Source of the DNA: Ilex aquifolium
Taxonomy: Eukaryota; Streptophyta; Magnoliopsida; Aquifoliales; Aquifoliaceae
Direction: 5' to 3'
NCBI GenBank assembly: GCA_951799425.1
Contig: OX637393.1
Coordinates: forward strand, 25,624,744 to 25,688,743
Length of the DNA: 64,000 nt
Each line of letters opens with the position of its first letter. Position 1 is the stretch's first letter. Below are positions 17,189-64,000 of this stretch, one piece after another. The translations under genes were made by a program, and so were the position numbers. The notes under the pieces were generated by a model. That model saw nothing but the letters and a program-made list of their open reading frames with translations. It was not told where the DNA came from and made no database searches.

Positions 17189-17189
17189 A

Positions 17190-34940: not shown

Positions 34941-35430
34941 ACAAAATAAGTTGCTTGTGTGAATTAGGTTTAAAAACCCCAATGAAAATTGAAGTTAAAG
35001 GCATACGAAAGTAATTAGTGTTGACCAAAATAGACTTTGTCCCACTTTTGTAGACAGGACACCAACAAAGACAAAATAGGATATAAAACTGACAGAGAAT
35101 GTTTGAAAAAGAAAAAGTTTAATTATATACACACACATACTAGTTCAAAAAAAGTACATACAAATCAGTCGATCTTACTTCTTTATGTGACAAGATGTTT
35201 AGGAATTGAAGTAGAAATTTATTAAATCTTTAAGGAGCCGACTACGGTACAGCCATTTGACTTTTCGGTATGGTACCGAAATCCAATGTGCACTGTAGAT
35301 CTGTCTAACAAGAAAACTGAGCCGTTGATTTTATTTTTCAAAAGAGTTACCGGTTACCGGTTGGATACCGGTTGCTAGACATGTCAGATAGTACATATGA
35401 GGACTAGGAGATTGTGTAACGTAATGAAGG

Positions 35431-36349
35431 AAGGAATATTTACAATTTGAATGGATTGTATACCAAATTTTTGGGTATATTTACAACTTCAATGGAAATA
35501 TTTACAACTTTCATGGATTATGTACCACTTTTATGGGAATATGTACAACTTTAATGGATCAATTACCACTTCAATGGATCATTTACCACTTTTATAGAAA
35601 AATTTACAACTTCAATGGATCGTTTACGACAGTAATGAATTTTTTACGATATATAATACTCCATGATCGATCATTAAATATGATAGATCGATCATAGTTT
35701 AACGTAATATATGAGTAACCCAAGAAGATATACAACTTCAATGGATGATTTTACCACTTTTAAAGCAATATTTACAACTTTCATGGATTATTGACCACTT
35801 TTAATGGAATATTTACAAATTTAATGGATCAATACCACTTTTATGGGAATATTTACAACTTCAATTGATCCTTTACTACTTTTATAGTAATATTTACAAC
35901 TTCAATGGATATTTTACCACTTCAATGGATCATTTACCACTTTTATAGGAAATTTCCAACTTCAATGGACCGTTTACAACAGTAATGGATTTTTTACGAT
36001 ATTTAATACTGCATGATCGATCATTAAATATGATCGATCGATCATATTTTTAACGTAATATATGAGTAACCGAAGAAGATATACAACTTCAATGGATCAT
36101 TTTACCACTTTTAAAGAAATATTTACAACTTTCATCGATTATTGACCACTTTTAATGGAATATTTACAAATTTAATGGATCAATACCACTTTTATGTGAA
36201 TATTTACAACTTCAATAGATGATTTACTACTTTTATAGTAATATTTACAACTTCAATGGATAATTTAACACTTCAATGTATCATTTACCACATTTATAGG
36301 AAAATTTCCAACTTGAATGGCTCATTTACCACTTTTATGGGAATATTTA
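35431..36349 (+). repeat. Left outer array: TTTACAACTTCAATGG units in a 350-bp higher-order repeat
   Basis: Short units of about 35 bases (ATATTTACAACTTCAATGG / ATTTACCACTTTTATGG) are organised in two copies of a 350-base block starting at 35641 and 35991, each containing TTTTTTACGAT and a TGATCGATCA pair. Only the left side is visible for this array. Confidence 0.85.
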
Positions 36350-37640
36350 CAACTAATAGAGGGGGAAGCATTTACTAAACGAATGATATTTTTTTACAAT
36401 TTTTAATGGTCCATGATCGATCATATTATATGTTCGATCGATCATGGGACTCAGGTGTGTTCGTAAGTAATGGATATCCAATAATATATACAACTTTAAT
36501 GGATCATTTACCATTTTTATGGGAATATTTACAAGTAATGGGGGGAAGCATTTACTAAAGGAATGGTATTTTTTTACGATTTTTGATGGGCCATGATCGA
36601 TCATGGCAGTGATGTGTGTTCGTAAGTAATGGATATCCAATAATATATACAACTTTAATGGATCATTTACCATTTTTATGGGAATATTTACAACTAATGG
36701 GGGAACCATTTACTAAATGAATGGTATTTTTTTACCATTGTTGATGGTCCATGATCGATCAGATTAAATGCTCGATCGATCATGGAAGTCATGTGTGTTC
36801 GTAAGTAATGGATATCCAATAATATATACAACTTTAATGGATCATTTACCATTTTATGGGAATATTTACAACTAATAGGGAAAGCATTTACTAAAGGAAT
36901 GGTATTTTTTTTACAAGTTTTAATGGTCCATGATCGATCAGATTACATGTTCGATTGATCATGGAAGTCATGTGTGTTCGTAAGTAATGGATATCCAATA
37001 ATATATACAACTTTAATGGATCATTTACCACTTTTATGGGAATATTTACAACTAAGAGGGGAATCATTTACTAAAGGAATGGTATTTTTTTTACAAGTTT
37101 TAATGGTCCATGATCGATCAGATTACATGTTCGATTGATCATGGAAGTCATGTGTGTTCGTAAGTAATGGATATCCAATAATATATACAACTTTAATGGA
37201 TCATTACCATTTTTATGGGAATATTTACAACTAATTGGGGAAACATTTAGTAAAGGAATGGTATTTTTTTTACAAGTTTTAATGGTCCAAGATCGATCAG
37301 ATTAAATGATCGATCAATCATGGAAGTCATGTGTGTTCGTAAGTAATGGATATCCAATAATATATACAACTTTAATGGATCATTTACCATATTTATGGGA
37401 ATATTTACAACTTATGGGGGAAGCATTTACTAAAGGAATGGTATTTTTTTACAAGTTTTAATGGTCCATGATCGATCATATTAAATGTTCGATCGATCAT
37501 GGAAGTCATGGGTGTTCGTAAGTAATGGATATCCAATAATATATACAACTTTAATGGATCATTTAACACTTTTATGGGAATATTTACAACTAATGGGGGA
37601 ACCATTTACTAAAGGAATGGTATTTTTGTACGTTTTTTGA
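36350..37640 (+). repeat. Left ~180-bp tandem array (TIR, left arm)
   Basis: The string GGATATCCAATAATATATAC occurs at 36472, 36631, 36810, 36989, 37169, 37348 and 37527, giving periods of 159 then 179-180. Each unit has a pair of GATCGATC palindromes (or near versions) about 25 bases apart. The same unit lies inverted at 63101-64000. Reading frames seen on the minus strand here are artefacts of the repeat. Confidence 0.92.
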
Positions 37641-37902
37641 TGGTCCATGATCGATCAATTTATATGTTAGATCGATCAATATACTTTCTGTGAAGGAGCA
37701 AAAGCGATTTACATGAATTAGATCGATCAAACATAAAGTATAATCGATCCGAATGTCACAGTTGTTTCAATCAGAGATTAAAAGTATTGTGGCAGTCTGA
37801 TCGATCGTATAAAAAAATGATTGATCAAATATGTACAAAACTCGAATTTGATCCATCACAGAATACTTATAAAAATCTATCATATTATGAAAACGATCGA
37901 TC
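37641..37902 (+). repeat. Inner unique part of the left terminal inverted repeat
   Basis: This segment (ACTTTCTGTGAAGGAGCAAA at 37683, then CACAGTTGTTTCAATCAGAG at 37757) is the reverse complement of about 62830-63070. It ends at 37902, after which the two sides differ. Confidence 0.85.
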
Positions 37903-37960
37903 AGAAAGCCACAGTACTTTAAAAACTCTGATTGAAACAACTGTGACAATATGATCGATC
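37751..37960. repeat. Local inverted repeat (hairpin-forming)
   Basis: The arm TGTCACAGTTGTTTCAATCAGAG (37754-37776) and following bases recur inverted at about 37903-37950 (CTCTGATTGAAACAACTGTG). The arms are about 50 bases with a spacer of about 100 bases. The right side of the element has only one copy of this arm (62921-62970). Confidence 0.7.
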
Positions 37961-38431
37961 ATTATTTATTTGTGATCGATCTATTTCATGTAATTAAAAT
38001 TTTTAATTAATTCATGTAAATTAATTTAATTAAAATATTAAATTTAATATAAACTACAATTTGATCGATCATATATTTATTAGATCGATCTATTATTGTA
38101 ATGGATTATTCGATCACTGAATAATGATCGATCGTGTACATATGAACAAGTTAACGATCGATCAAATTGTAGTGATCGATCAGTTACATAGATCTAAATT
38201 GGTCAAATTCTGAAAGTTAGTGATCGATCACTTAGTTATTCGATCTATCATTAACCTTTTGCCACTTCATGATCGATCAGTTATTTTGCGATAGATCAAT
38301 GTAGAGGTGTTGTAGCAGAAGAATGGTGTTTCAGTCCCCTCATATTAGCGGGTTAAATGTGGTAGGCTGAAACTATTCGATCGATCGTATATTAGTTTGA
38401 TCGATCGGAAGTTAATTTTTTTCCAAGGCTG
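37961..38431. repeat. GATCGATC-rich region between array and first gene
   Basis: AT-rich DNA with about eleven GATCGATC words not arranged in a regular array, ending about 750 bases before the first recognised exon. It may be promoter or binding-site sequence for the flanking gene. Confidence 0.65.
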
Positions 38432-38443
38432 AACGACGTCGTT
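38432..38443. promoter_or_regulatory. AACGACGTCGTT palindrome upstream of the HMG-Ulp1 gene
   Basis: A perfect 12-base palindrome with a GACGTC core, the kind of site bound by plant bZIP factors. It lies just inside the GATCGATC-rich region and upstream of the leader. Regulatory role is inferred. Confidence 0.35.
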
Positions 38444-39195
38444 TAGTGTTTATTTACATACCAACCAATCAGGTTGTGACAACTAGCTACAGCAGTTCCC
38501 TCCTACTTCCTTCATAATCCCGCCAAAAACCACTACCCAGCTCCCTCCATCCTCTAAACATTGAGCTCACTGGTCTCCTCTTTCTATGTTCCAAAAAATC
38601 ACCACTCCCCTATTCATCCGACTCCATCTTCTTTGTTCCGAATTCTGTGCCTCCCTCTGCATCACAAGTTTTTTATTCCTTGCAATATGGGTTTGAGGTC
38701 ATAAGTATCCCCTTTCAGTATTTCAAAAAAGGTTTGTATTGGTCTACGTAGAAGTGTGTACACTACTCCTCATTTGTCTTAGTTTCGGCTTGTTGTGATT
38801 AACGACCAGGAGGAGATACATAATAAGGTATCATGAAATTATTAGTGAATATATGAAATGTTATTTTTTATAAATGGTATGTTTTCAGTGTTTGACATCT
38901 CTGTGTGTGTTATAATTGGAAACATTTACGTACTGGTAATGATGTTATAGTTGTGAATGAATGTGTTGGTGAGTGAGTGTGTTTTAGAAGGATATCTGAC
39001 TGGTTTAGAGAAGTGTATGTGTAGCATATACTTATTTATATGACCTATATACCATGTGTTATTTGCAGGGTAGTAGCAAGGCAATAGACTTGGGAAGTCC
39101 AATTTGGCGATTTTTGTAATGAAGATATGATTATATAGTTGAAAATATTTCAGAATCATCACATTTCAGACTTCATATTATGGTACATATTCCAG

Positions 39196-42100
39196 GGGGA
39201 AGAAGAGGTCACAGGAGTCAAAGGCCGAAGGCTTGAAAGCACAACGTCCACCCACTGCATGGCTATTTTTCTAGTATGAAACATTTGTGAATTGTAGTGT
39301 AAAATTATTTTGTGGTTAATGTATATTTGATAATGTACGTATTTGTTGTACTTCCATTACAGTAAGGAACAAATGCAGAATATCAAAGGAAACGCTGATC
39401 AAAAAGTGACACGCGAGGTATAATTTTTGTTACAACGAGCGAGTATTGGTTGGAATAGTGAAATTAATAATGTCTTCCAATTGAACTTGTATTCATAAGG
39501 TGATTAAACAACTGGGTGACCAATAGAGGAAGATGGCAGATTGTGAGAAAGAGAAATACAAAGAAATGTCTATACATGCGAAGAGTGAATATGATCGTGT
39601 GAAAGATAATTCGGGGAAAATAACAGAACGGGTAATTATATAATTTCGATGCTAATTTTCACAATCCATTGTTTACATTTACTGCACCTCTCCAACTGAC
39701 ATTTATGTCTATGTTTTGACAAATAATCAAAGGGGACGCTTGGTACAAGGTGTTCGCCTGGGAAAATTGTAAAAATGATACAACTTTTATGTGATGAGCA
39801 GAAAGCTGCAATAAAAGAACTTGGTTTTGGAGGGATGTTGAGCCTCAAATGTGGGGAACTGAAGCGGGGTTTATGTGCATGGTTGATTGAAAGGTTTGAC
39901 ACTGTGTCATTGACATTAAATGTGTACGGTGAAGCTATTCAGTTATCAACCATGGATGTTGAATGTGTCATGGGTTTGAGAAACGAAGGCTTGGACGTGG
40001 AGACTACTGGGCCCAGTGAAAGGATTAATGGCATTTGGAATTCATTATTCAATGGCGTTAAGGATATCCCGTTGAGACATGTGAGTGAGAGACTTTGTGT
40101 ACTTAAAGTGGCTTCGGATGAGTTTAGGATAAATTTTGTGCTATTTCTTATTGGACATCTTTTATACCCAACCATGCGTACTTCAATTAGCAGCGGGTAT
40201 CTTCACAGTGTTGTAGACGTTCCTTCTATAGGAAAGAGAAATTGGGCAAAATTTGTATTTGATGGTATGGTTGAAGGGGTACGAAAATATCAAACTCGTC
40301 ATCATAAAAATGTTAGTGGATGTTTACTTGTTCTTATGGTAAGGTATCATTTTTTTTGTTTAGTAATTTTATGTTGTGCTTGTTTCACACAACTTTTACT
40401 GAATGACCTCGTTTATTTTTTTAATGTAGATAGTATATCTAGAGCGGTTCACACCCAAAGCGGTGTTTGTTAAACAACCGCCATGTAGGAGCATCCCTCG
40501 AATTGCTGCATGGGGGGATGAGGAAATTAAGAAACATGTAAGAATGTTGAAGAAGTCCAAACGACTAGCATGTCAAGAAGTTACTTGCAAAGTTTTGGAC
40601 GACACCATGAATAAACCCCAACCAGTCGCTACAGTCAGCCTTAGTAAACGATCCACCCATGAAGTGAAGCAACCTATTTTGACATCAGATGAAAAACCAC
40701 CGGTACGTATATACCATGATACTGAAATCACATTGATTTATAAAAAGTTTAGGACACGTGATTAATTGTGTAAATGTGTAGGAATGGGAGGCCAGAATGG
40801 TTAAGATGGAGAATGCGATTGTTAACCTTACTGGCATGGTGGGGTCAATGGTTAACATGATGCAAATGTTCATGGGTGGATCGTTTCCTAAACCATCAAA
40901 TTACCAAGACATAGAGAATGCTGCTGCTGTCGGAGAAGTTGATGAGAAAAAAAATAAAATTGACTTGAATGAAGGTGTAAATGCCAATTCCCGGAATGAA
41001 GTGGATGTGGACTACCGGATTTGGACACCCATTGCCGCTATCCACACCCCACCACCAAAACCATTCCAGGAGGCACGGCGACGGCCAGTGAATACTGACA
41101 ATGACGGTTACGAACATAATGACGTTGGTGACCTGCAAGAGGCTTCTTACTCATGCACACAAACATCGTTCCCACCAATGCAGCTAAGAAGAGATTCTAA
41201 ACGGAGGCCAAGCAAATATGTGATGTCACCATATGAACAACCAAAGGTATAACATACATCAAACTTACTGTATTAATTAAGTACCTTATACGTTATCCTG
41301 ACTTATATTTTACTCCCTTTAACCACAGAATCGTTGGGTGAAGAAGGATGATAACAAAGAGGGCAAGGGGGAGGTGAATAATCCCCCTGATCACATTCAA
41401 GAAATGGACAATTCCATTCATAAACAAATAATGCCCAAGGTTCTGACAGCAGTTATTATTATTATCCAAGGTTTTGTATATCTTTATGTTCAAATTATCT
41501 GTCCACAGGGCGGTTACAACATGAATTGTTATGACAACAAGGCATCGATCGATGTGTACAAGACTCCGCTCAAATCTGCTAACAAACTGAAAGTGTCTTG
41601 TACAAGTGCATCAGTTGCTGAAATTCATAAGGTATGTTTTTGTACATTGTTGATTACGTGACAAACTTGAATGGTAGTTTAATAACACATATTGGGGAAA
41701 CAGATTTCAGAATCTACGTTGGGTATTCCACAGCACGTTGAGGAATATGCAAATGTAGACATACTGTATCCTGAAGATAAGCAATTGATTCTGAATTACA
41801 TATTTGACAAGAATCTTGACATGAGGTATCTTTATTTTTTAATGTACCAATTGATACAATTTAAAAAATTATTTACTATGTGAGCGAAAGTATTTGTATG
41901 CTTACCGGATTTTTGTGTAATATTAAATTTTTTTATTTCAAACAGAGAGGATTTAATTAGGTTTGAACATGACCATGCTGGACGCCACTGTCTCATGACA
42001 CTATTACCAAAGCAGTGGTTACTTGATTCGGTTGGAAAATTAGGAACAATCTTTTATTAACTTTTTAAAGATTTATCCATATGTCGGTACCATAACTTAA

Positions 42101-43122
42101 ACCACTGCCAATTTACTTTTTTATTTTTCCAAGGACTGTCACAGGTTGTGGATTTGGCGCACAATTTGTTATCTAATGAAGATAAGACTAATCCACAAAC
42201 TGGGTTAGAGAGGTGGTATCTACCCACGTGGTTCTCGGTAATAAACTTGTGTTTATTTGTAGGACCTAATTATTTTATTTTTTAAAAAAAATAATACATA
42301 CAATATGTTGATTATAAATTTGTTTGTTGTATTTAGCAACAGGCACTGGCTTGTGCTGGAACGGCTGACAGTGCAAGTAAAAAAGGTTTTCTTCAATCCT
42401 TGTGTGCTGCGAATGGGAAGTACATAAAAGATTTTACATACTGTGACAAGGTCTGTATTGACCATATAATTAATCCTTTTGATTTCAAAAGTTTAACATT
42501 ACTTACATTGATTCACGCTTATTAACAACGTATTGCTGTGTAAACAAATTTAGATATACATCCCGATCAACGAGAACAACTCCCATTGGTATCTATGCGT
42601 CATTGACGTAACTGAACAGAAAGCTCTTTTGTTGGACCCGCTTCCTGGTGACGATATTTCAACTCGGCTGAATGTTGTGCATAATGTGGTCTTTGAATTA
42701 GATGATGTCCTTGAAGCTACACAGCATAAGTACCAACCTTATTTGGGAACATTCACTTTGTCCGCACCGTCTTGGGCCCCACGTCAGGGGAATGCATATG
42801 ATTGTGGAATGTTTGTTGTGAAGATGATCCTGGCTCCAGTGCTTTGTCCAGGCTTTAGCATTAAGGTGAAATATATAACATAGGCAACCTACGACATGTC
42901 GGGATCTGTGATCTATAATTTGTTTATATCCCTCTTGTAATCGAATTTTGTTAACAAGGTGGTATCATGTTGTCGCAGGAAGATTCGAATGAAATGCGGA
43001 TGAACTTTGCGTTTTCATTAGCTACTCACCCTGACAACAAAGTTCGCAACAAACTCATACATAAGGCGCGAGAACGAGGGATAGAAACGGGGAAATGTAG
43101 AAGTATATTAGCAGGAATGTGA
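39196..43122 (+). CDS. HMG-box / plant-mobile-like / Ulp1-type protease (C48), one in-frame stop
   Basis: Inferred exons: 39196-39273, 39363-39417, 39500-39631, 39733-40338, 40430-40702, 40782-41246, 41329-41439, 41509-41631, 41704-41825, 41946-42030, 42145-42237, 42337-42450, 42554-42865, 42979-43122. All junctions are GT-AG and phases agree. The first three encode an HMG box (R-P-P-T-A-W-L-F-F start; E-K-E-K-Y end). A TAG at 39524-39526 replaces its conserved Trp. The 606-base exon encodes a helical domain like the plant-mobile or DUF1985 domain next to Ulp1 proteases. A helical Met-rich linker follows. The last exons form the C48 domain with His (42584), Asp (42635), Gln (about 42785) and Cys (42803). 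Ulp1 enzymes cleave SUMO-like tails. The first exon is unresolved; an alternative start at ATG 39533 would skip the stop and lose the box. Confidence 0.8.
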
Positions 43123-43715: not shown

Positions 43716-43825
43716 GGTGTTTCCTGAAGATCATAAATACTATTATTGAACTTTAGTCGTGTGGCTATGATTTGGCAAGTGAAAAGAATATACACTTTGA
43801 TATTCAGGTTTGAATTTCTTTGCTG

Positions 43826-44012: not shown

Positions 44013-44512
44013 AATCTTTTTTTTTTTTTTTTTTGTAAAAGAGGAATTTAATTCCAAAATTGAAGAATTTACAAGAAACAACCACCAAATTTGTTCTAAA
44101 GTATGAAAGTTGGCTTTAACCCTTAAATGGGTTAAAACAATCTTAACTAAAATTTGTTTGAAACTTGAAGCAAAATCAAATTCTGCCTACAACATTAAAG
44201 TCCTAGCTATAAACCGAAAACCAACCCTTGAAAGGCAGCATGGGACATTGGGAAGCTGAGCTACGAGAATTGATAGGCAGATCAGAGCTCTTGGCTTGAC
44301 TGAATTTGAGCTGAAGGAGCAGTCCATAGTATCTGCTGAGGAAGAAGAATTCCTGAAACAGCCGAAAAGTCTTGGATAAAACCAACCCTTGGTATCTTCT
44401 TGGACATCCAACAGACAGCCTGCCATTAAGGCAGACATCCTCTCTTGCAGCACATTCCTTGAACTGGGGAAGATAGAAGATCCATTTCAATAATCGAAGT
44501 ACAATTCTCAGT

Positions 44513-48582: not shown

Positions 48583-51500
48583 TCAAGGTGTGTGTAGTGT
48601 CATATGTATGATCCTATCTCTGACAGTGTTCTCGTCAGCGGTGACCAAGTTAATAGCGATTTCCGTTCGAATGTCTTTACTCCTACCCTGCATTTAACAT
48701 ATTCAAACCATTAAACATAACACTTGAAGTTTTTTTTTTTTTTTTTATTTGTACGGATACAGATATGCGGCAATGTCATCACGGAAGATTTATTGTTATT
48801 CACCTTTACTGTAAAACCTTGCCCCAAATGTGCTGATTGCATCATCTTCACAACGAAAATTCCGCAATCATTTCCATTGTCTTGTACGGGCATCCATGCT
48901 GGTTTCACAACCTGGAACGTGCGCAAATTGTGTTTAAAATCGGCCGCCCTACTTGCAAGAATGTCGTCCAACACCTCAATCTACAAAAAACAAGTTTGGA
49001 ATATAATTGGCCAAATTAAAAAAATTTGTTGACAAGTATCATATACTAAATGAAAACATTAAGTATCTTACAACTCTATTCGCATTTGTGCGGCGAACAT
49101 TGTTTCTTTTTGGATTTGGCAGAGGGTCGAGTATGAATGTTTGTTTCTCCTCTATATCCACAAAAAGTAGATACCAATGTGATTTTTCATCGTTCATTGG
49201 GATATAAATCTACATACAGACAAACAATTATTCATAATATACACTAACTTACAAACAATTAGAACACGAATTAAAGCAGTATAGACTACCTTTGTAGTTG
49301 ATGAAAAATCAGGAAGTTGAAGGCGACTAAACTTCTTTTTTTTCTTAGTTACCCTTGCACCTTCACTGCGGGTGCGGCGGCGTGACGTTGGTTGTTCATC
49401 CATTCCCATGGCTTGTTGCTGCATACAGTCACAAGCTTACACACATTAATTTGTTTGTCACATGACCCGAACTGTGTATTGCATAATGCAACTAAAAATT
49501 GTGCATAACTGATGACAACATATACTTACAGAGAAGACTGTAGGTAAGTACCATCGTCCCCTTTGCGGAGCGATGCAGGCACACATATCAATTACCTAAT
49601 AACATTGTTTACACGATATTTTAGTTTCATTATCATAACGTAACAACAATAACAGTGAAGAAATTAACTTTCACGAACAATTCCACTAAGCCATTTGTTC
49701 GGGGCAAGGGTCTGTAACACCTCCCTCGTTCCTGCATCATGGTCACCAACTGATACCATTCGCTCACTACACGTAAACAAAACCAATTAAGTTTATGCAC
49801 AGGTGGTGTATTGGAAAACGATCAAACTAGCACCCGTTTCAAATAATGCCATGGACAAACATAAAAAGTACAACAGCACATACTCAGATGGCAAGTGTTT
49901 GTCAAATATGTAAAGGTAGATTGCGCGTTCGACATCATCATCGATATGGGTTATTCTTGGGAACACCACATCTGCCATCTACAAAGCAAATTAGCGTATA
50001 ATTCATTCAGCTTCACACTCACCTGAAAATACATGTTGAATTTTTAATAAACCATATCAATATAGCATACTTCATTTGGTTGGTCTCCCTCTACAGCATC
50101 TGCATCATCCAAATCAACCTAAAATATAAAGTTCGCAATTGTCAGTTCACGTCAACAAGTAAGCAGTAATGGATGTCGTTAAACAATGAACAACACATTT
50201 TAAGGTTGCACCAGTACAACGGATTTAATACACACCTTTGTCAGATCAATTTCATCTTCTTCTTTATTTCCCCCCATTTCATGTCTGACATCCTTCGCAT
50301 TCCCCGAGTTATCAAGAAATTTTGACATCAGCTGTCCTATATCACCCAGTCGTTTATCCATCACAGACAAAGTAGTTGTGCAGTTTGATGCAAAAATATC
50401 AAACTTTTTTTCCATGCGCTCTGCAAGAACCTCAAGTCTACCAACTCTTATCCGCAAATCCTAAAAAAAACATACGTAATAATTCACAGTACAGTCAAAG
50501 ATTTGCAGATCAATATTATGTTTATTATGAAAATTTATAGATTAGACATGGTATATGTACATACGTCAGCAACTGCTTGCTGGGATGCAGTACCAAGTGC
50601 ATCATCAATGATCTCCTCCTCCACAAAAACATCCAACTACAACAAGTAAAACGAATGTAATGACATGCTTGTCAAATACTATTTAAGACTATACCATACA
50701 ACAGTGCTTTTTGGGGAAAAATTGTCTTGTATGGAGAAAATTTATACCTCCTCCAGATGGAACCCGCCACAAGTGAAGATATCATTCATTCTTTTATTGA
50801 CCTCGCTGTCACCCCACTCTACAATCCGGGGTACCTCACGAAAAACCATAGGAATGATGGTTTGCCCTCTCGGTGTAACTCGTTCAAGATAAAAGACCTG
50901 CATACAAAAGAAACTGAAGACAATAAAACACTATTTACCATTGGTATACAACATACACATTAACAAACACGTCCTGTATAAGTGCTTTACCATCAGAACA
51001 ACAAGACAACCACCCAGTGATCCCCGCCCGGATGCTTGAAATTTTGTAATGCCTTCAAGGACTTCATCAAATACGAACTTGCACCAATTTGTATGTCGTA
51101 ATGAAGGCACATCAACAACAGTGTGTAATGAAGCAACACTTAGCGTTAGTCTCATTGTTGGACGAAGCATACAAGCAATAATATATAAAACAGACAGCCT
51201 TATAAAATCGTCAGAGGCATCTGTGATTGAACTAAGGCGCTCCGACAAATGTTTCACAGATACCTCCGGTTGTCCGTTAAATATAGACGTACAAAGGTCC
51301 TGAATCCTGTCCTTTGTACCCGTGGTGACCACATTTGTCCCAGAAAATTGCAAACCTAGTATGTAGGTTACATCTTGTGGGCTGAACTTCGCCCATTTGC
51401 CATACAAATTGAAAGCACAACGCTGGGGATCAAATCGTCCAGCCAACCATGCACACAAATCATGCCTGATATAAGTGCATGCTATGTTCAGCAATCCTCC

Positions 51501-51803
51501 CAAGCCAATTTCGATGATGGCTTGTTTTTGTGCGGCATTTATATTTGATGCGAATTTTTTGAGTCTTTTTGGTGAACATCTGGTCCCCACATAATGCTGT
51601 ACACATTAAGTAATTGAACAATTAATACGGAACGGCACATGTGAAGTTGAATAAACTAATGATGCATATGCTTAATTTTCTCCATAACTAAATGTAACGA
51701 TGTATAACATACTTCTACATCTGTATGGCCTAAACTATCCGCACGTCGTCTTCTTTGTCTCTTCCCGGACGTGGAGGTATCAACCACTTGTTTTTTCTTT
51801 GGC
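48583..51803 (-). CDS. Plant-mobile-like / Ulp1-type protease (C48), paralogue 2
   Basis: Inferred minus-strand exons, 5' to 3': 51803-51713, 51596-50991, 50897-50748, 50636-50565, 50460-50236, 50118-50071, 49978-49884, 49766-49679, 49595-49530, 49418-49290, 49209-49072, 48980-48804, 48687-48583 (TGA). Phases agree; the start exon is not found. The first exon is Lys/Arg-rich (P-K-K-K-Q, G-K-R-Q-R-R-R), a likely nuclear signal. The 606-base exon equals in length the one at 39733-40338 and both contain G-T-R-C-S-P and G-G-L/M-L. A coiled-coil exon follows. The C48 domain has His (49177-49179), Asp (49126-49128), Gln and Cys (48864-48866). No stops occur in about 660 codons, suggesting selection or youth. 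Transcription converges with the first Ulp1 gene. Confidence 0.82.
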
Positions 51804-53352: not shown

Positions 53353-53575
53353 CACCTCTACTCATGATCATATAAATACATTGATTTCCAGGTCACAGAT
53401 AAAAAAGTAGAATAATTCTAGAGACATAACAAGGAGAAGCATAAAACAAAACATGACCCACAAGAAATCCATTGATAAGATAGAACAAAGAATAACAATG
53501 AAACCAGAACAAACAAAGACCACATAAGTCCTATACCAACAATGAAAAAACTAAGTGAAAAATAAGAGACCTTAC

Positions 53576-53914
53576 CTTCCAAGCCAGAGAAAATCCCAGA
53601 TGATTTGCGAGAGAACTGCCCAATACCCAACACGCTAAACAAAGCAAAGCGGCCAAAGAACCAGCTTTCTTATCCAAAAAGACATAGAACAAAGCATAGG
53701 TCAGAGCAAATAAAAACCCGAAATTCAGAACCAAACCATGAGTGTACAAGAACCCAATTTGAGAGAGATTGAAAAATGGAGGCAGGACATAGAAAAGAAC
53801 AATAAAGGTAAAGAAAATTGGCCACACAAACAACATATGAATCAAAACATTCACTGGGTTGGTGTGGTATGCCCCGTAGAAGGCAAATTGCTTCTCAAGA
53901 TCAAACAATCTTGT
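53576..53914 (-). pseudogene. Captured first exon of a DUF962/Mpo1-like membrane protein gene
   Basis: On the minus strand about 110 residues follow the N-terminal half of the eukaryotic DUF962 family (yeast Mpo1, plant ER proteins): F-D-L-E-K-Q-F-A-F-Y-G-A-Y-H, N-P-V-N-V-L-I-H, then three to four hydrophobic membrane segments. The His in F-Y-x-x-Y-H is part of the metal site of this dioxygenase family. The exon ends at a good donor (GGAAG/GTAAGG at 53576). No initiator ATG precedes it (TAG at 53915-53917), and no later exons are seen downstream. This suits a gene fragment picked up by the element. Confidence 0.75.
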
Positions 53915-54440: not shown

Positions 54441-56492
54441 ATTGCAATAGCTTTGTCTTTAGTTAATCGTAGAGCTTGGAAATGGGCTGAATAATATCCT
54501 CAAATGACTTTCCCACATAGAAACAACAAGAAGTACAACAAAGTCCCAAACAAATAACCAGTGCAGCCGTATGCAAGAGAACCAAGCAACCAAAGCAGAA
54601 AAATATCCTTTCCACTCAACCTAGCACCGACTCATGTTTCACAGGTTTCTTTTGTAATGGATTTATAATCTTTTGTTATCCTTTCCACTCCTTGCTTTTT
54701 ATAGGCTGATTTATAACCCTCACCAACAAGATGGCCCAGTAATTCGTCCACTCTATGATTCATCTAAGAGTCCTGTTGAGGACATGTGCTTCCCATTGGC
54801 TACAAGAGGGACCCGACAGAGTGGAATTGGGGGAAGCACTTTCGAAAAATAAATGCAAGAGAGATTGAGAAGTGAAAACAGTGGAATTGTGAATGGAAGG
54901 AGGCTGAATCGAGTGCATATCTAATTGAGGCAATTCATCAAACATATTGTGAACAATTAAAAGAAACTCATCTCAAAAAATTTCAAGAAGTCAATCTGTT
55001 CACAGAAAGCAAGAGAAGAGAAAACATATATTGGAGGAAGGAAGACATACCTGAAGGAGGAAGGAAGACCGTTCACAGTGCAGAAATGGAGTAGAACTGG
55101 ATAAATGGAGGAAGACAGGCTGAGCGGGAGACAGACTGGCGAGTAACTGGCCCTCACCAGATCTGGCGAGCAATTTAGCTTCCTAGATTTTGGCGAGTGC
55201 ACTGGCGAGGGCGTTGGAGCAGCAAAATATGAAATTTGCTCGCCAAAATGGGTAAAAGGTATGCACTAGCGAGGGCGATGGAGATGCTCTAAGAGAAAGA
55301 GAGAGAGAAAATAAGGCAAAATAATGGGAGGTTAACGATTGGGGGATTTGGGCGGGCAAATGGGCGGTTAATTTTTTTGTTTTCAATTTCAATTTTGAAT
55401 ATGACATTAATTTTTCATATTCTGTTTTTTAAAATTTCATACATGGGGTTAAAAATCGAGCAATGGGATAAAAAAAAAATTATAATTTAAAAATAAAAAA
55501 TTTTTTTTACTATATTCCAACTAACATAACATGTAATATAATGCATCCAAAAAAAATTATAATTTGAATTTAATTTATCATAGTAATTGAGTATAATAGT
55601 AAAAAAAAATTGGAAGCAGAGAAAAATTTTTTTTACAATTTTTCACAATCCAATCCAATCCAATGGGTACAATCCCCGTATCTAATTTGGTAACGGAATT
55701 ACAATGATGTGCAACACATGTACGACACGATTAAACGACAAAAAGCATAAAAAATTAAATACCTTTTCGTATGATAGCAGTTCTCATTCGTGTGATAAAC
55801 GGGTAACCCGTCATACACGTTTATTAATTAATATATTTTCAGGTGATTCCTGTCAACCCTTTTAATACTCGTCTATCAATTTAATAGCATTACTACAAAA
55901 TATCATAATAATACCTATACAAATTTTATCCATAAATTTTATTTTTTAAATGTGAAAAAAAATAAATATATATTGTATTTAGGTACACCCATAGGATTTA
56001 CAAATGTTCTGTGTATATTTGAACTCAATTGTAGTAAAAGGCTTACAGTTTGTATGAAAAGTCATGCAATCTTAATTGTAATTTATTATTATATAACATT
56101 AACACCTTCCAGCCAGAGACAAGACTCCCATTTACTCATCCTCAACCACCAGTAATTACCATTTGGCTTGGCAAAAGGTATTGTAATACCCGTGAACCAA
56201 CTCCATCAAAACAACCTTCCTTCAATATCTACATCTGTTAAGGGGGAGGAAGAGACGAAATCAAACAGGTATGTCATCCAACCCAAATTATTATGAATGT
56301 ATTTTTTTTTTAATACATAAGAATAATGTTTGATTTTGTGTTCCTTACTATGATTCAATTATTTTCATAAATATATGTCAACACTGCATTTTTTTTCATT
56401 TACTTTTCCAACAATTATTTATTTTTGGAACTGTATTTGTATAATAATAATAATAAATACAAAAAATTGCCATTTTAGGTTTGCAGCATAAA
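54441..56492. other. Spacer upstream of the FAR1/MULE transposase
   Basis: Contains a cluster of TGGCGAG words with GGAGATGCTCTAAG at 55279-55292, a string often seen at ends of small plant DNA transposons (low confidence), an AT-rich stretch (55400-55640), and an inverted GGGTAACCCG pair near 55800. The leader of the transposase gene probably has an intron ending at the TTTTAG at 56473-56478. A promoter was not pinned down. Confidence 0.4.
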
Positions 56493-58862
56493 ATGGCTCG
56501 TACTAGCTTAGAAAAGGGAAAACATGTCGTTATAGACTTGAATGAAACACCTGATGGTAGTGAAATATATGAGTTTGACACATGTAATGGTGAATATGGG
56601 CATCGTCACGGGAAATCACATTCGGCCATGGCACAACCCCTTGAACTGGAAAAATCTTTACAAGACTTATCGGCTGAGGAAGTCTGTCAGATGAAGTTTA
56701 ACTCGGAAGATGAAGCAGGAAAATTTTATAACACATACGCTAAGTTTGTAGGTTTCAGCGTCAGGAAAGATGACTTAAAATATGACAAAAATCACGTCCC
56801 GGTGTCAAGGAAGTGGGTATGTTCGCGACAAGGGTTTCGAGCTGCAAAATACTTGGACCGTGATGACAGGGCACGGGAACCAAGGGGAATAACGCGAGTT
56901 GGTTGTTTGGCGGGATTTCGCGTTAAGTATGACAGAAAGACTGAAACTTGGGTAGTAAAGGAGTTCGTGAATGATCATAATCATCCGTTGGTTCCACCGA
57001 CTGGAGTGCCGTTCCTTCGGTCCCACCGCCGCGTGAAAAGCCCAGACATAGAGCAAGCAACATCACTTCGCAGTGTTGGAAAACGCACTGCTCAAATACG
57101 AGATTTTATGTTGTATCAAGCTGGAGGGTACCAAAATGTTGGTTTTACGCGAAAGGATTTGTACAACGCAGTTGCAAGCCAAAGAAGAGAGGAAATGAGC
57201 GATGGGGATGCTGAAGGTGCACTAGCATACTTGACGGCGAAACAGGAGTTAGACCCATTATTTTACTTCAGGTACAGCGTTGAAGATGATAATTCATTGA
57301 ATTGCCTCTTTTGGGCGGATTCAACTTCCCGTCTAGACTATTCATGTTTCGGTGATGTTTTGGTATTCGATACAACATACCGCACCAATGCGTACAAAAA
57401 ACCATTTGTCATACTTGCAGGTGTAAACAACCACAATGCTACTTGCATTTTTGGATGTGCATTGCTTTCAAATGAGACAGTGGACACTTATGTGTGGGTG
57501 TTGGAGACATTTCTGGATGCAATGGATAATCAAACGTCTATATCAGTTGTCACCGATGGGGACAAGGCCATGGCCGCCGCAATCGAAACAACTTTTCCAG
57601 ATGCAAAGCACAGACTATGCAGCTGGCATTTGGAGAGAAATGCGCTTCAAAATATTCATGCTGAAAATTTCCTTCGCGAGTTCAAGAACTGTATGTGCTG
57701 CCGATGTACACCTGAGGAATTTGACGTTATGTGGGAATCAATGGTACATTCATTTGGCCTAGAGGATAACAACTGGATAGCAGAAGTGTACACAAAGCGT
57801 TGTAAATGGGCTGAAGCATTCTTGCGGGGTCATTTCTTTGGCGGCATCAAAAGCACGCAACGCTCAGAAAGCTTGAATGGTTACTTGAATCGTTTCTTGA
57901 AAACAAGGCTACGTTTGTATGAATTTGTTAGACAGTATGATAGGGGTGTATCAAGAATCAGAGAGACCGAAGCCTATGACACCCATTTTTCTGAGAACAG
58001 TACACCAGTGTTGACCACTGCCCTTCGCTGCTTAGAGGAGCAGGCTGCATCGCTGTATACCAGGTCAATTTTTTTTAAAGTGCGGGATCAGATAAAGGCC
58101 GAAGGACTCTTCTTCGTGGTCCAAAAAATACAGCACAGTAGTCATTGCAGTTATTATCTGTCAAAATACACAAAACCAACATCCAGTTGGAATGTGATTT
58201 ATGATTATCAGAATCACACCATCCAATGCAATTGCCTGAAATTAGAATCTGTTGGAATTCCTTGCTCACACATCATTACAGTTTTGAAAACTGAACACAT
58301 AACAGCGTTCCCTCCTAGTACTATTGTAAAGCGATGGACAATTACTGCAAAATCAGCTTTCCCACCGACCTTTGTGCCTCAAACATCAAGAACCATTTCA
58401 ATTTCTTGCCGATATGCTGGATTAATGTCAATGTGTAGCCGGATGTGTTACTACGCATCCCATTTGCATGAGGACACACAGGAGCTTCAAACAACGATAA
58501 CTGCAGTAACCACCCGCATGAAACAACGTCACGACACACGGGATGCAAGACAGTTGTCATCGTCACATCAAGATTATAATGAGAATGTGTCGAACATTAA
58601 ATTTGGTGTCGTCGATCCCAAGACAGTCACAACTAAAGGGAATCCGGGCCGTGTAAGGAAGAACCTACCAATAACTCCGCGACGATGTAGTAAATGTCGT
58701 GGCACTGGACATACTATTCGTAAGTGTCCGCAGCTTACGTGCAATGCGGATGACCCACATGATGACATGCCCTTCTCACAACCTGGTGGCTCCCAACAGC
58801 CCATGGCATCAACTCAAGAAGACATCCATTGGAATCCAACTTACAATTACAATGTCCTCTGA
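56493..58862 (+). CDS. FAR1-related Mutator-like transposase, intact (789 aa)
   Basis: One uninterrupted frame from the ATG at 56493 (M-A-R-T-S-L-E-K-G-K). Domains: FAR1-type WRKY/GCM-like zinc finger at about residues 79-165 (F-Y-N-T-Y-A, two Cys, then D-H-N-H); MULE DDE transposase at about 285-460 with Asp in V-F-D-T-T-Y-R, Asp in V-T-D-G-D-K-A and Glu in R-S-E-S-L-N-G-Y; SWIM zinc finger at about 578-592 (C-N-C-x7-P-C-S-H); CCHC-like knuckle at about 731-745 (C-S-K-C-R-G-T-G-H-T-I-R-K-C). This is the layout of FAR1/FRS proteins and their parent MULE transposases. It would bind the element ends and excise or copy the element. It could also be a domesticated regulator, but its place inside inverted arrays favours transposase. 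Confidence 0.92.
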   Translation: MARTSLEKGKHVVIDLNETPDGSEIYEFDTCNGEYGHRHGKSHSAMAQPLELEKSLQDLSAEEVCQMKFNSEDEAGKFYNTYAKFVGFSVRKDDLKYDKNHVPVSRKWVCSRQGFRAAKYLDRDDRAREPRGITRVGCLAGFRVKYDRKTETWVVKEFVNDHNHPLVPPTGVPFLRSHRRVKSPDIEQATSLRSVGKRTAQIRDFMLYQAGGYQNVGFTRKDLYNAVASQRREEMSDGDAEGALAYLTAKQELDPLFYFRYSVEDDNSLNCLFWADSTSRLDYSCFGDVLVFDTTYRTNAYKKPFVILAGVNNHNATCIFGCALLSNETVDTYVWVLETFLDAMDNQTSISVVTDGDKAMAAAIETTFPDAKHRLCSWHLERNALQNIHAENFLREFKNCMCCRCTPEEFDVMWESMVHSFGLEDNNWIAEVYTKRCKWAEAFLRGHFFGGIKSTQRSESLNGYLNRFLKTRLRLYEFVRQYDRGVSRIRETEAYDTHFSENSTPVLTTALRCLEEQAASLYTRSIFFKVRDQIKAEGLFFVVQKIQHSSHCSYYLSKYTKPTSSWNVIYDYQNHTIQCNCLKLESVGIPCSHIITVLKTEHITAFPPSTIVKRWTITAKSAFPPTFVPQTSRTISISCRYAGLMSMCSRMCYYASHLHEDTQELQTTITAVTTRMKQRHDTRDARQLSSSHQDYNENVSNIKFGVVDPKTVTTKGNPGRVRKNLPITPRRCSKCRGTGHTIRKCPQLTCNADDPHDDMPFSQPGGSQQPMASTQEDIHWNPTYNYNVL

Positions 58863-59049: not shown

Positions 59050-59822
59050 AAATTTAATGTGCTTCATTGATTTTGGTGAATGCTGTTCTGGGTATTTTTT
59101 ACTGTCCTTGGACATGTTTGAGCTATTTGAGACAGATCAGTGGCTTCTTGAGGGGTCTGGCTTATATATTGGTGCATTTTTTTCGTGACGCAAATGCTGT
59201 GGCTTATAGTCTTCATGGGCATGCAGTAAAGAGTAGGAATTCGGTTTATTTTCCAATGGGTTTGACATTGCCTTGTGATGTTACATTGGATCTGTCATCT
59301 GATCAACAGAGTCTACCTGTGTTGCAAAAAAGAAAGAGTGTGGTCTTCGATGATAAGGGGTAATAAGATCTGCTGATGGGGAGCTTTTTGTCTTGAATGA
59401 TTAAGTGTTGATTTGTTTGAAACAAGGGAAAAATTTAAAAAGCCTCGTGATGTTACATTGGATCTGTCATCTGATCAACAGAGTCTCCCTGTGTTGCAAA
59501 AAAGAAAGAGTCTGGTCTTCGATGATAAGGGGTAATAAGTTCTGCTGATGGGGAGCTTTTTGTCTTGAATGATTAAGTGTTGATTTGTTTGAAACAAGGG
59601 AAAAATATAAAAAGCTCTTTATTGTTGATACGTGCTTATTGATTTGGACTGTGCTGGGGAGTTTTGCTGAAACTTTAGACTTTGCTGTTGTGTATTTTTG
59701 GCTTTCCATTGTTAGTTTTGGCTTATATTGCTTCTGTGTGGGCGTCTGTGCCTTTTCCTTTGTTTCTTGTAAATATTTTTGCATTATGAATAAATATAAT
59801 TCCCTTTTGATAAAAAAAAAAA
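59050..59822 (+). mobile_element. L1-type LINE 3' end (plus strand)
   Basis: 59067-59345 encodes the end of a LINE RNase H domain (V-H-F-F-R-D-A-N-A-V-A-Y-S-L), with the usual Asp of A-D replaced by Tyr. The rest is a 3' region that ends in a poly-A run at 59809-59823 after a TGAATAAATATAATTCCC string typical of plant LINE tails. It lies just downstream of the transposase gene, in the same orientation. Confidence 0.65.
59277..59620 (+). repeat. 172-bp direct duplication inside the LINE tail
   Basis: GATGTTACATTGGATCTGTC begins at 59277 and again at 59449, and the following sequence to about 59610 repeats with few changes. Confidence 0.9.
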
Positions 59823-60097: not shown

Positions 60098-60560
60098 TCT
60101 TTTTTTTTTTTTAAATAGTGTAACTATTATTGATCGAATAAGTAAATTACAAGAAGCAAAGAACAAACAGTTCCTACAAATTTAAAAAAATGGCTTTAAT
60201 CCTTCAACAATATTAAAACCATTGTAAGCTACAAAATTGTGTCTTCTGATCTTCACTCCAGCTCCTGAACTTCCACACAACTCCTCATGCAGAATCCCCA
60301 GATCAGAAACAAACCAGTACAGCACCCATGCAGTCCCACCTACTTTGCTATGTACCCAAACTAAGCTTCTGCACCTTTGTTCACAGCCCATGTCACAGCA
60401 GACCAGCAGTCTATAAGAATATCATACAGCTACTGAAACAAAGCAATACAGCAAACCAGTCCACCAGCCAAGCATAAAGACCAACTGCCCAGACATAAAA
60501 GTTGCCCAGCTCATGCCAAAAGTTGGCTTTAATCCTTCAACAGCAAAAGAGGCCAAAATA
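60098..60560 (-). mobile_element. LINE-type or retroposon 3' tails (minus strand), probably two
   Basis: A poly-T run at 60100-60111 is followed by TACAAGAAGCAAAG and by GGCTTTAATCCTTCAAC at 60191-60207. A second GTTGGCTTTAATCCTTCAAC is at 60522-60541. Related strings follow the poly-T runs at 44017 and 45608, so these belong to the same family of 3' ends. Confidence 0.5.
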
Positions 60561-60701
60561 TCAGCTACAACATGTCAACATTTCTAACAACAACCCAATA
60601 TATTTAACAACCATCCACCCAACATCTACAACAACCTTTTCCAAAATGCCAAATATTACTATAAAACAAAAGATTCACCAAAACCCCCCAAAACCAACGT
60701 G

Positions 60702-61796
60702 TCATTTGTTGATATACTCTTTAAAGTCCTTATAAAAACAATCTAATTTTGACTCCAGACGTTGTAACGACCCCTTCGTTTCATCCTCGAACTTTTCAAA
60801 TCGGGCCTCCAACTTTTCAACCATTTGCTGAAGTGTTTGTTGCACCTCAGTAGTACCAACATCAGAACCACCTTGACTAGGCCCAGCTTGACTGCCCACA
60901 ACCTCAGACACCGCACGTGGCTGCTTCACACGCTTCCCCCTTTTCCCTTTACCCAAAATCGCTCCCACACTTTTATTAAGTGTACCAATACCCATTGAAT
61001 TCATGGGGTACATAAAACTGTCATTATGCGTAAATTCAACCCCATTATGCTTCAAAATCTTGGTAATTAATATTGCAAATGGAAGACATGGCCTGCAATC
61101 CTCGACGGTAGATGATTCGCGAACATGGTTGAATATGTAAAGGGGTAGATCAATAATAACCCGCTTATCACCAATAGCATGTAATAGTTGGGCCGTATCG
61201 TATCCAATCTCAGCAGTATGCCCCCTTGGATGAATATTACAAGCAACAATTCGGTTTATCATCCTAAACGTTAGATTAAGGTCAATGTGAGCAATTTTGC
61301 TTTTCTCATTCACCCAATTGACACTCCCAATACAAATATGTCGAATAACCGTCGACATTTCAGGAACTTGCTCCTTACTTGAGTATGGAAAGACAATGGA
61401 ATTCTCAGGAATGACTGGTCTATCAATTTTTATTATTTTTGAGATAACATCAGGCGAAACAGTTATGGCTTTCTTCCTAACCATTGTCTTAAATGTCAGC
61501 TCATTCTCTTTGTAGTCATGAATATTTGCATAAAAATACCTAACAAGATCAACAAATGCTTTATTTTGCACATTCACTTCAAACAAAGGATCCCATTTTC
61601 GTGCCCGAAGTATTTCTGGGCAATCCACACTTCCTATTAGCTCATCAAGGTGAACACCACGCTCAAGTATAAAAGGACGTTTAACAATTAATGTATCATA
61701 CCTCTTCTTCGCATCATTATCCACAAACTGTTTCGCATTGCCAGCACTGCCCCCCGTAGCCACCTTCTTCCGTTTCTTCGTCTCTCCACCCGACAT
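60702..61796 (-). CDS. 'Putative plant transposon protein' family gene, intact (364 aa)
   Basis: The ATG complementary to 61794-61796 starts a Lys-rich N-terminus (M-S-G-G-E-T-K-K-R-K-K). The central domain follows the plant family I know as PF20167: L-V-R-Y-F-Y-A-N-I, then V-R-K-K-A-I-T-V-S-P-D-V-I, and L-P-F-A-I-L-I-T-K-I-L near residue 260. The C-terminus (last ~50 residues) is a strong coiled coil (heptads with L, M, F at a/d positions), preceded by a basic patch G-K-R-G-K-R-V-K. No stops interrupt it. A related but broken gene lies in the Athila-like element at 26593-27720. Function is unknown; the coiled coil suggests self-assembly, the basic ends suggest nucleic-acid binding. Confidence 0.75.
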   Translation of the reverse strand: MSGGETKKRKKVATGGSAGNAKQFVDNDAKKRYDTLIVKRPFILERGVHLDELIGSVDCPEILRARKWDPLFEVNVQNKAFVDLVRYFYANIHDYKENELTFKTMVRKKAITVSPDVISKIIKIDRPVIPENSIVFPYSSKEQVPEMSTVIRHICIGSVNWVNEKSKIAHIDLNLTFRMINRIVACNIHPRGHTAEIGYDTAQLLHAIGDKRVIIDLPLYIFNHVRESSTVEDCRPCLPFAILITKILKHNGVEFTHNDSFMYPMNSMGIGTLNKSVGAILGKGKRGKRVKQPRAVSEVVGSQAGPSQGGSDVGTTEVQQTLQQMVEKLEARFEKFEDETKGSLQRLESKLDCFYKDFKEYINK

Positions 61797-62229
61797 CAGC
61801 AAAGCTCCAAAGGGATTCACAACGAACAATGCAACATTCACAATGGCAGATTCACAATGGAAGATTCAAAACGAACAATGGAAGATTCACAATGGAAGTA
61901 GTGTGTGTAGGCATCGCATTTCTGTACCCAATCTCATGAAAGGTATTTCGGGTGGTTTGCGATTTTGGGTTTATGGAATTCGGAGATTTTGATTGGGTTT
62001 TGTAGGATTTGGAATTGATTTTTCAGTATTTGGAATGCATTTGGAATGGGTTTTTCTTGGTGTACAGGATTTCGAAGGGATTTTTGAATGGCTTCGGTTG
62101 GCGCGAGTTGATTAGGGCTTTATTTCCTACGATTTGGGGATTTATTTGTGGATACTGCGAGTTAATTTACTACAATACCCCCATTACAACGCTTCAATCA
62201 ATTCCTCTTTGAGGGCATTTACGTAAATA
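61797..62229. other. 5' flank of the transposon-protein gene
   Basis: Short imperfect repeats of (A)CAATGGAAGATTCA at 61840-61900 lie just upstream of the start. Otherwise no feature. Confidence 0.4.
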
Positions 62230-62836
62230 CATAATACCTGATCGGTCATATTTACTTTCGATCGATCAAAATTCCACTTCCCCATTCAACTTCTACCTCA
62301 ATAACGCAATGATCGCTCAGGCATCCCTTGTATGATCGATCAGATGTCCCCAGTCAATATGAATTCTGATCTGTAACATTTTGATCAATCAATATAAATA
62401 TTTGATCGATCATATATCACAGTATTAAGATCTGCAACCAACTGATCGATCAAATACATATATCTGATCGATCAGATGTCCCCAGTTCTTCAGAGTTCTT
62501 ATCTTTAACAACTGCAACTATTTGATCGATCATAATAAATATATGATCGATCAGATGTCCCCAGTACTTCTGAGTTATGGTCTGTAACAGTTTGATCGAT
62601 CTATATAAATATTTGATCGATCATATATCACAGTATTAAGATCTGCAACCAACTGATCGATCAAATACATATATATGATCGATCAGATGTCCCCAGTTCT
62701 TCAGAGTTCTTATCTTCAACAACTGCAACTATTTGATCGATCATAATAAATATATGATCGATCAGATGTCCCCAGTACTTATGAGTTATGGTCTGTAACA
62801 GTTTGATCGATCTATATAAATATTTGATCGATCGTT
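62230..62836. repeat. Right-side 211-bp higher-order array of GATCGATC monomers
   Basis: CAGATGTCCCCAGTTCTTCAGAG starts at 62473 and 62684, a 211-base period made of three related monomers of about 79, 70 and 62 bases. Each monomer carries one or two GATCGATC palindromes. About 2.5 copies are present. The left side has no equivalent array. Confidence 0.85.
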
Positions 62837-63100
62837 TTCAAAAAATGATAGATCAAATAAGTATTCTGTGTGATGGATCAAATTCGAGTTTTGTGCATAT
62901 TTGATCAATCATTTTTTTATACGATCGATCAGACCGCCACAGTACTTTTAATCTCTGATTGAAACAACTGTGACATTATGATCGATCAGACTTTATGTTT
63001 GATCGATCTAATTCATGTAAATCGATTTTGCTCCTTCACAGAAAGTATATTGATCGATCGAACATATAATATGATCGATCAGGGACCATCAAAAATTGTA
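62837..63100 (-). repeat. Inner unique part of the right terminal inverted repeat
   Basis: Reverse complement of about 37641-37900, including the CTCTGATTGAAACAACTGTG and CTCCTTCACAGAAAGTATAT strings. Confidence 0.85.
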
Positions 63101-64000
63101 AAAAAATACCATTCCTTTAGTAAATGCTTCCCCCCATTAGTTGTAAATATTCCCATAAAGGTGGTAAACGATCCATTAAAGTTGTATATATTATTGGATA
63201 TACATTACTTACGAACACCCATGAGTGCCATGATCGATCGAACATCTTATGTGATCGATCATGGATCATTATAACTTGTAAAAAAATACCATTCCTTTAG
63301 TAAATGCTTCCCCCATTAGTTGTAAATATTCCCATAAAAGTGGTAAATGATCAATTAAAGTTGTATATATTATTGGATATGCATTAGTTACGAACACACA
63401 TGAGTGCCATGATCGATCGAACATCTTATATGATCGATCATGGACCATGCAAACTTGTAAAAAAATACCATTCCTTTAGTAAATGCTTCCCCCCATTAGT
63501 TGTAAATATTCCCATAAAAGTGGTAAACGATCCATTAAAGTTGTATATATTATTGGATATCCATTACTTACGAACACCCATGAGTGCCATGATCGATCGA
63601 ACATCTTATGTGATCGATCATGGATCATTATAACTCGTAAAAAAATACCATTCCTTTAGTAAATGCTTCCCCCATTAGTTGTAAATATTCTCATAAAAGT
63701 GGTAAATGATCAATTAAAGTTGTATATATTATTGGATATCCATTAGTTACGAACACACATAAGTGCCATGATCGATCGAACATCTTATTTGATCGATCAT
63801 GGACCATGAAAACTGGTAAAAAAATACCATTCCTTTAGTAAATGCTTCTCCCCATTAGTTGTAAATATTCCCATAAAAGTGGTAAACGATCCATTAAAGT
63901 TGTATATATTATTGGATATCCATTAGTTACGAACACACATGAGTGCCATGATCGATCGAACATCTTATGTGATCGATCATGGATCATTATAACTCGTAAA
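63101..64000 (-). repeat. Right ~180-bp tandem array (TIR, right arm), open at window end
   Basis: TATTATTGGATAT recurs every 180 bases (63190, 63370, 63550, 63729, 63909). It is the inverted counterpart of 36350-37640, with paired GATCGATC words in every unit. The array runs off the window. Confidence 0.92.

Follow-up and report, generated by a model that had tools for sequence, protein, structure and literature searches.

Two arrays of tandem repeats stand in opposite orientation in a 64,000-nucleotide stretch of the Ilex aquifolium genome (assembly GCA_951799425.1, contig OX637393.1, positions 25,624,744 to 25,688,743 of the forward strand; hereafter the window), and enclose an uninterrupted gene for a FAR1-type Mutator-like element (MULE) transposase together with two Ulp1 genes. 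On balance, we lean toward reading this arrangement as one giant FAR1-type MULE whose array ends carry pairs of the palindromic octamer GATCGATC as predicted landing pads for the element's own DUF1985-like/Ulp1 proteins. The arms would then be the terminal inverted repeats (TIRs) of a single element of at least 28.5 kb (35433-64000); with a right arm built like the left one, it would measure about 30 kb. The first figure is a minimum, since the right arm runs off the window and the left terminus at 35240 is putative.

Inverted arrays and the enclosed transposase

The components of the two arms are as follows, with repeat periods taken from Tandem Repeats Finder (TRF).

35240-35432, no strand: putative outermost left end, proposed in an earlier note on this DNA from reading the sequence
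35433-36354, forward strand: outer left array, 20/41-bp subunits organized into a higher-order unit of 351 bp, with five GATCGATC octamers (TRF, octamer positions)
36361-37678, forward strand: left 179-bp tandem array, seven units, octamers mostly paired (inverted repeats, TRF, unit comparison)
37680-37902, forward strand: unique inner segment of the left arm, with an inverted copy at 62837-63050 (inverted repeats, arm alignment)
37903-38460, no strand: left subterminal region with 11 further octamers (repeat search, octamer positions)
62331-62833, forward strand: subterminal array on the right, 2.4 tandem copies of a 211-bp unit, octamer-rich (TRF, octamer positions)
62837-63050, reverse strand: unique inner segment of the right arm (inverted repeats, arm alignment)
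63051-64000, reverse strand: right 180-bp tandem array with a 359-bp dimer structure, stopping at the window end (TRF, unit comparison)

An inverted-repeat search of 30-64 kb returned 69 pairs, and all of the longest 25, which were those listed, join 36.35-37.86 kb to 62.87-64.00 kb with 88-94% complementarity. TRF assigned the left array a period of 179 bp with 6.1 copies (36595-37678) and the right array a period of 180 bp with 5.3 copies (63051-64000), the latter cut by the window end. The longest arm-to-arm alignment pairs 36731-37981 with the reverse complement of 62735-64000 at 88.9% over 1,271 columns and stops at the window edge; the inverted arms are thus at least 1.2 kb each, the right one being incomplete. 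The length and identity of the arrays exclude a chance origin. The earlier note had claimed that the same unit of about 180 bp and the same unique segment occur in both orientations, and the alignment confirms this for 36361-37902 and 62837-64000; its label of "satellite-like" also suits arrays with tandem units of 179 and 180 bp.

The passage from array into unique segment is itself shared. The inverted pair that spans it (37595-37860 and 62869-63134) is 94% alike, and left unit 7 and right unit 5, which are 92% alike, both join tandem-unit sequence to the same unique segment, so that the junction is common to both arms. Left unit 7 is 86-91% alike to the remaining ten units. Across the 12 units compared, mean identity is 92.6% among those of the left arm, 93.3% among those of the right arm and 91.1% between arms, and divergence from arm to arm therefore barely exceeds that from unit to unit. 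Inward of the shared junction, similarity in the arm alignment drops to the level of motifs, and positions 37923-38002 are a direct copy (85%) of 62950-63029. The outer left array is related to the 179-bp array and lies on its outer side; its right counterpart would lie past 64000. Comparison of the array with plasmid records, viral contigs and prokaryote genome contigs gave no matches, a result that is uninformative on copy number, plant DNA not being expected there.

The gene for the transposase lies toward the right arm.

56493-58862, forward strand: FAR1-type MULE transposase, uninterrupted open reading frame (ORF), 789 aa from the first ATG (Pfam, relatives)

Pfam matches in 56481-58862 comprise the MULE domain (1.6e-26; 93 bits against a cut-off of 27.6), FAR1 (7e-22) and SWIM (3.5e-4), in keeping with the earlier description of an intact MULE transposase between the arms. 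A database search scored 7,989 proteins, of which 525 reached an E value of 1e-20 or better and 120 were listed. The nearest relative among the matches listed is 63% identical and the next, a Rhododendron protein, 49%; the relatives of named source noticed among these matches come from flowering plants. The acidic residues D293, D355 and E459, the presumed catalytic triad, do not vary among 13 of the 120 listed relatives that were selected for alignment. Comparison of the transposase with solved structures gave no match.

Paired octamers and the proteins that may read them

The octamer GATCGATC, an 8-bp palindrome, occurs 62 times in the window against 0.46 expected from first-order composition. 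The copies lie strictly in the end regions (32 at 35665-38399 and 30 at 62260-63971), with none elsewhere in the window, including 38400-62259, three ORFs and the span of the UlpA gene model described below. They are found in several repeat contexts, namely the 351-, 179- and 211-bp units, the unique segment and the non-tandem subterminal DNA. Pairs with 8-18 bp between the two octamers number 24, compared with none in 100 shuffles, which excludes a chance origin of the pairing. The intervening distance is 13 bp in 18 of these 24 pairs, equivalent to 21 bp from start to start. When one unit was kept per tandem family, 6 of 19 octamer gaps measured 20-22 bp against 0.73 expected at random, a number reached in 9 of 200,000 random placements, which is suggestive and not a strict probability, as the regions were chosen by the analyst and the contexts may share descent. 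A spacing of 21 bp amounts to two helical turns and would turn both sites to the same side of the helix, which fits a predicted dimeric or cooperative binder.

Candidate binders are encoded between the arms, where the earlier note had placed two Ulp1 genes.

39196-43122, forward strand: UlpA, 14-exon model with HMG box, DUF1985-like and Ulp1 (C48) parts (hand-built model, Pfam)
48714-51605, reverse strand: UlpB, DUF1985-like/Ulp1 gene convergent with UlpA, exons located (Pfam, tblastn)

Both genes were recovered, with a Peptidase_C48 match well supported in UlpA and below the cut-off in UlpB. The exon edges of UlpA were picked by eye for GT-AG introns and an open frame, and neither property counts as independent support for the model. 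Its first part matches HMG-box families (HMG_box_2, 1.7e-10; a second match, 7.7e-10; both above cut-offs) and its end matches Peptidase_C48 (9.6e-20; domain at 42554-42880), while the DUF1985 match is weak (7.4e-4) and below the cut-off. The DUF1985 match of UlpB (3e-4) and its Peptidase_C48 match at 48714-48980 (8.6e-4; 19.6 bits against 20.7) are likewise below their cut-offs. Between the two genes, tblastn of UlpA against UlpB gave 36% identity over 51590-50685 (E 7e-53), 41% at 48971-48789 and 51% at 49218-49114, and the DUF1985-like exons are 44% identical. A structure predicted for the DUF1985-like exon of UlpA from a two-sequence alignment had a mean predicted local distance difference test (pLDDT) score of 33.8 and was discarded. 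No start codon was found in the UlpA model. Because UlpA lacks a recognizable start and also carries an in-frame stop, this copy of the element may rely on UlpB or on other copies.

The listed transposase relatives include gene models fused to domains of the same kinds. Among the 120, ten carry a Ulp1 domain, all from Citrus sinensis, on contigs that share a single length and so perhaps isoforms of one locus, and three carry Transposase_32, from two neighboring Rhododendron simsii loci and one R. molle locus. These models are probably neighboring genes merged by annotation, and we use them just as a sign that transposase, Ulp1 and Transposase_32 genes adjoin in other plants. In pairwise BLAST, UlpA shares 34% identity with Citrus P0014 over 127 residues, and its Ulp1 region shares 29-32% with several Citrus models; an 88-residue alignment of UlpA with the N-terminus of Citrus P0014 shows 39% identity. 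Pfam detected no HMG box in the Citrus Ulp1 models.

Published work on the VANC proteins of Arabidopsis VANDAL elements suggests what such genes might do. VANC proteins are DUF1985 proteins; they recognize a nine-base motif that is enriched in tandem repeats of non-coding DNA, and methylation is lost in a sequence-specific manner as a result of their action (PMC5735166). KIU genes, which are Ulp1-carrying VANC genes, reportedly target motifs within the elements that encode them (PMC13317346). We propose that the Ulp1-fused proteins encoded by the element use the arrays as landing pads, because DUF1985-like/Ulp1 genes and a motif concentrated in non-coding repeats fit the VANC/KIU scheme. Under this proposal, the transposase would join both ends and then cut and paste the element. 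Proteins of the UlpA/UlpB type would bind the paired GATCGATC octamers in the arms and, once bound, would protect the arms from silencing, an effect that VANC and KIU proteins are reported to have at their own motifs in Arabidopsis. The fullest form of the proposal, which seems less likely than not, is a self-shielding FAR1-type MULE of about 30 kb in which the TIRs would be the anti-silencing target, GATCGATC pairs phased at 21 bp the address code, and the element's HMG-box-DUF1985-Ulp1 proteins its readers; one array would then be both transposition end and anti-silencing landing pad.

The octamer pairs could instead be binding sites for the transposase only, read by its FAR1 domain, with the Ulp1 genes otherwise employed. 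This is a possible account, if a doubtful one. The transposase does have a FAR1 DNA-binding domain (7e-22) in an uninterrupted ORF, and for foldback elements it has been suggested that transposition becomes more efficient when TIRs hold binding sites in tandem (PMC4079207). The octamers, however, reach as far as some 3 kb inward of the presumed left end, into DNA that is not inverted, and since they lie so deep inside the arms, a regulatory target fits at least as well.

One element or several

Further interior content has a bearing on whether the two arms belong to a single element.

53573-53908, reverse strand: fragment of a host Mpo1-like (2-hydroxy-palmitic acid dioxygenase-like) gene (Pfam, tblastn)
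60702-61841, reverse strand: Transposase_32 ("putative plant transposon protein") ORF, directed inward from the right arm (Pfam, 1.2e-25)

The Transposase_32 match bears out the transposon-protein gene that had been predicted between the arms. The Mpo1-like fragment corresponds to residues 6-121 of a 203-aa relative, without the start, and is about 72% identical to eudicot proteins; tblastn of full-length relatives against the window found nothing convincing for the remainder of the gene. This partial exon may be a captured fragment, which is a Pack-MULE trait, or left-over host DNA. Between 43.2 and 48.4 kb (about 5 kb), none of the seven ORFs scanned has a Pfam match at the E-value limit applied, which was 0.1 for six and 0.01 for the seventh. 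The ORFs at 44477 and 46426, also without a Pfam match, both hold a peptide starting MKR(K/T)AE, and a 172-bp tandem duplication (97% identical) lies at 59270-59615, inside the element.

The main rival to a single element is a composite, in which at least two MULEs, or two opposite fragments of one family with host DNA between them, share ends. We regard this as the less probable arrangement, though a serious one. An interior of about 25 kb that holds a fragment of a host gene, two diverged Ulp1 genes and a stretch of some 5 kb whose scanned ORFs lack a domain match would suit it. So would the divergence between the arms, which at about 9% is more than recent movement would lead one to expect of an element's two ends. 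One element is favored because the junction is shared, because no further arm or octamer occurs between 38400 and 62259, where the octamer scan found no internal arm of the same kind, and because nested termini are not detectable. Two independent copies in opposite orientation would also be expected to stay alike further inward than the arms do. A nested MULE was sought around the transposase (best inverted score 14.0; 20 shuffles, mean 13.9, maximum 16.5) and around UlpB (15.0; 20 shuffles, mean 14.1, maximum 16.0) and found no support in either place, though short degenerate ends such as those of CitMule could escape this search. The earlier note had spoken of one element or a small nest sharing ends; its inverted arms and transposase stand, neither an internal arm nor nested termini appeared, and of its two options we infer the first. 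The GATCGATC octamer, the HMG box and the Mpo1-like fragment are additions to that note.

Two other explanations seem much less probable. That the arrays are a dispersed satellite flanking transposon genes by coincidence is very unlikely: tandem units of about 180 bp do resemble satellite DNA, and the TIR repeats of a foldback element became satellite arrays in Drosophila virilis (PMC4079207), but chance insertions would not be expected to produce inverted placement, an identical junction of array and unique segment on both sides, or octamer-rich, non-tandem subterminal regions inside each array. The chance is at least as slim that the FAR1/MULE ORF represents an FRS gene domesticated by the host, the arms stemming from an element without a transposase. 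Many of the listed relatives are annotated as "FAR1-RELATED SEQUENCE 5-like", as such a gene might be; yet the presumed catalytic residues are conserved in the aligned relatives, and citrus elements with 9-bp target duplications encode the same domain set (CitMule, PMC4334395). A CACTA element was also considered and rejected, as three terminus patterns searched on both strands had no matches in the window and no CACTA transposase family was among the Pfam matches of 20 scanned stretches covering part of the interior.

Several observations weigh against a single element addressed by its own proteins. The outer right end and a 9-bp target duplication would lie past 64000, outside the sequence. 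Apart from the shared descent that may affect the gap test, gaps of 20-22 bp are no more than moderately unusual when the left inner stretch is taken by itself, where 1.2% of random placements do as well. Protection of the octamer CpG was looked for in the end regions and found no support: 10 of 13 degenerate octamers are altered at the central CG, five of them by C-to-T or G-to-A, and with octamers masked, observed/expected CpG is 0.73 and 0.55 in the arms versus 0.57 and 0.55 elsewhere. A single in-frame stop interrupts the UlpA model at 39524, and the portion downstream of it, used as a database query, returned no relatives at an E value of 1e-10 among 5,257 candidates. The DUF1985 matches of the two Ulp1 genes score 19.9 and 21.2 bits against a Pfam cut-off of 35.1. 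The Transposase_32 protein shares only 22-26% identity with the Rhododendron models and is encoded on the strand opposite to the transposase, whereas the two are on the same strand in those models. Finally, VANC-carrying VANDALs are described as having degenerate TIRs (PMC10398659), unlike the long arms described here.

Relation to known elements

The VANDAL and Kaonashi (KI) MULEs of Arabidopsis and other eudicots resemble the holly element in having a MULE transposase beside DUF1985-type genes, fused to Ulp1 in KIU, of which UlpA and UlpB are the putative counterparts, and a short motif concentrated in non-coding tandem repeats, the counterpart here being GATCGATC, all 62 copies of which lie in the end regions. 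They differ in being non-TIR elements or in having degenerate TIRs (PMC5735166, PMC10398659, PMC13317346), in contrast to the long inverted arms found here. The transposase of the holly element is of the FAR1 type, unlike that of VANDAL and KI elements, and the available portions of these sources make no mention of an HMG box in VANC or KIU such as that in UlpA. Because the arms are 88.9% alike over 1,271 columns, we do not file the element as a VANDAL, and compare it with one only in how it may work.

Long inverted ends built of tandem repeats are a trait of foldback-type MULEs. FARE of Arabidopsis and Tm1 of root-knot nematodes likewise combine a MULE-type transposase with composite tandem-repeat TIRs, although the TIR repeats of Tm1 are about 14 bp and its transposase-coding product about 2.3 kb (PMC3169594), compared with units of 179/180 bp and at least 28.5 kb here. 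The Tetris foldback element of Drosophila virilis has AT-rich TIRs with tandem repeats of about 220 bp that are about 94% alike and can become satellite arrays, and differs in being apparently non-autonomous (PMC4079207). The transposase itself resembles those of the CitMule/Jittery-type MULEs and grapevine Jitvine, with FAR1, MULE and SWIM domains in about 800 aa. CitMule differs in its size of 6.8-6.9 kb and the lack of long TIRs (PMC4334395), and Jitvine-1 and Jitvine-2 in their sizes of 11.9 and 14.4 kb, with TIR length unlisted in the available text (PMC2528002). Some grapevine Jittery-like families also carry Ulp1 sequences, and Ulp1-carrying MULEs are known in Arabidopsis, melon, rice and grapevine (PMC2528002). 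The Pack-MULEs of one study measured up to 7 kb (PMC6431247). The MULE sizes given in the available portions of the compared literature are smaller than 28.5 kb, and we claim no record for the holly element.

Array-ended MULEs (FARE, Tm1) and VANC-carrying MULEs are each already known. No description was found in open-licence literature of an element that combines a FAR1-type transposase with VANC/KIU-like genes and with TIRs made of kilobase repeat arrays, nor was there a match there for HMG box, Ulp1, Mutator and transposon together. The union of array-ended arms with VANC/KIU-like genes at such a size appears to be new. Loss of long TIRs has been held to help VANC-carrying MULEs evade RNA-directed methylation (PMC10398659), and an element with kilobase inverted arms, one palindromic motif and Ulp1-fused DUF1985-like genes would directly test this view: either the motif arrays compensate for the disadvantage of long TIRs, or silencing reaches the arms. 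The locus supplies a concrete motif and spacing for such work (GATCGATC at 21 bp), and suggests a possible path from transposon ends to satellite-like arrays.

Other repeats lie to the left of the element. Palindromic tandem repeats rich in GGTACCGG occur at 8593-8745, and the proposed left end is likewise rich in TACCGG at 35260-35380. Two direct repeats of 2.6 kb (98.4% identical) with ORFs between them, at 13336-23520, are probably a young long terminal repeat retrotransposon; they hold a 20-bp tandem unit that bears some resemblance to the unit of the same length in the left MULE array. Dispersed repeats with 73-91% identity in both orientations link 1593-3468, 4488-6375 and 29648-30961, and also 3-1462 and 25123-26508, and a tandem repeat of 102 bp in 4.6 copies is present at 9323-9792.

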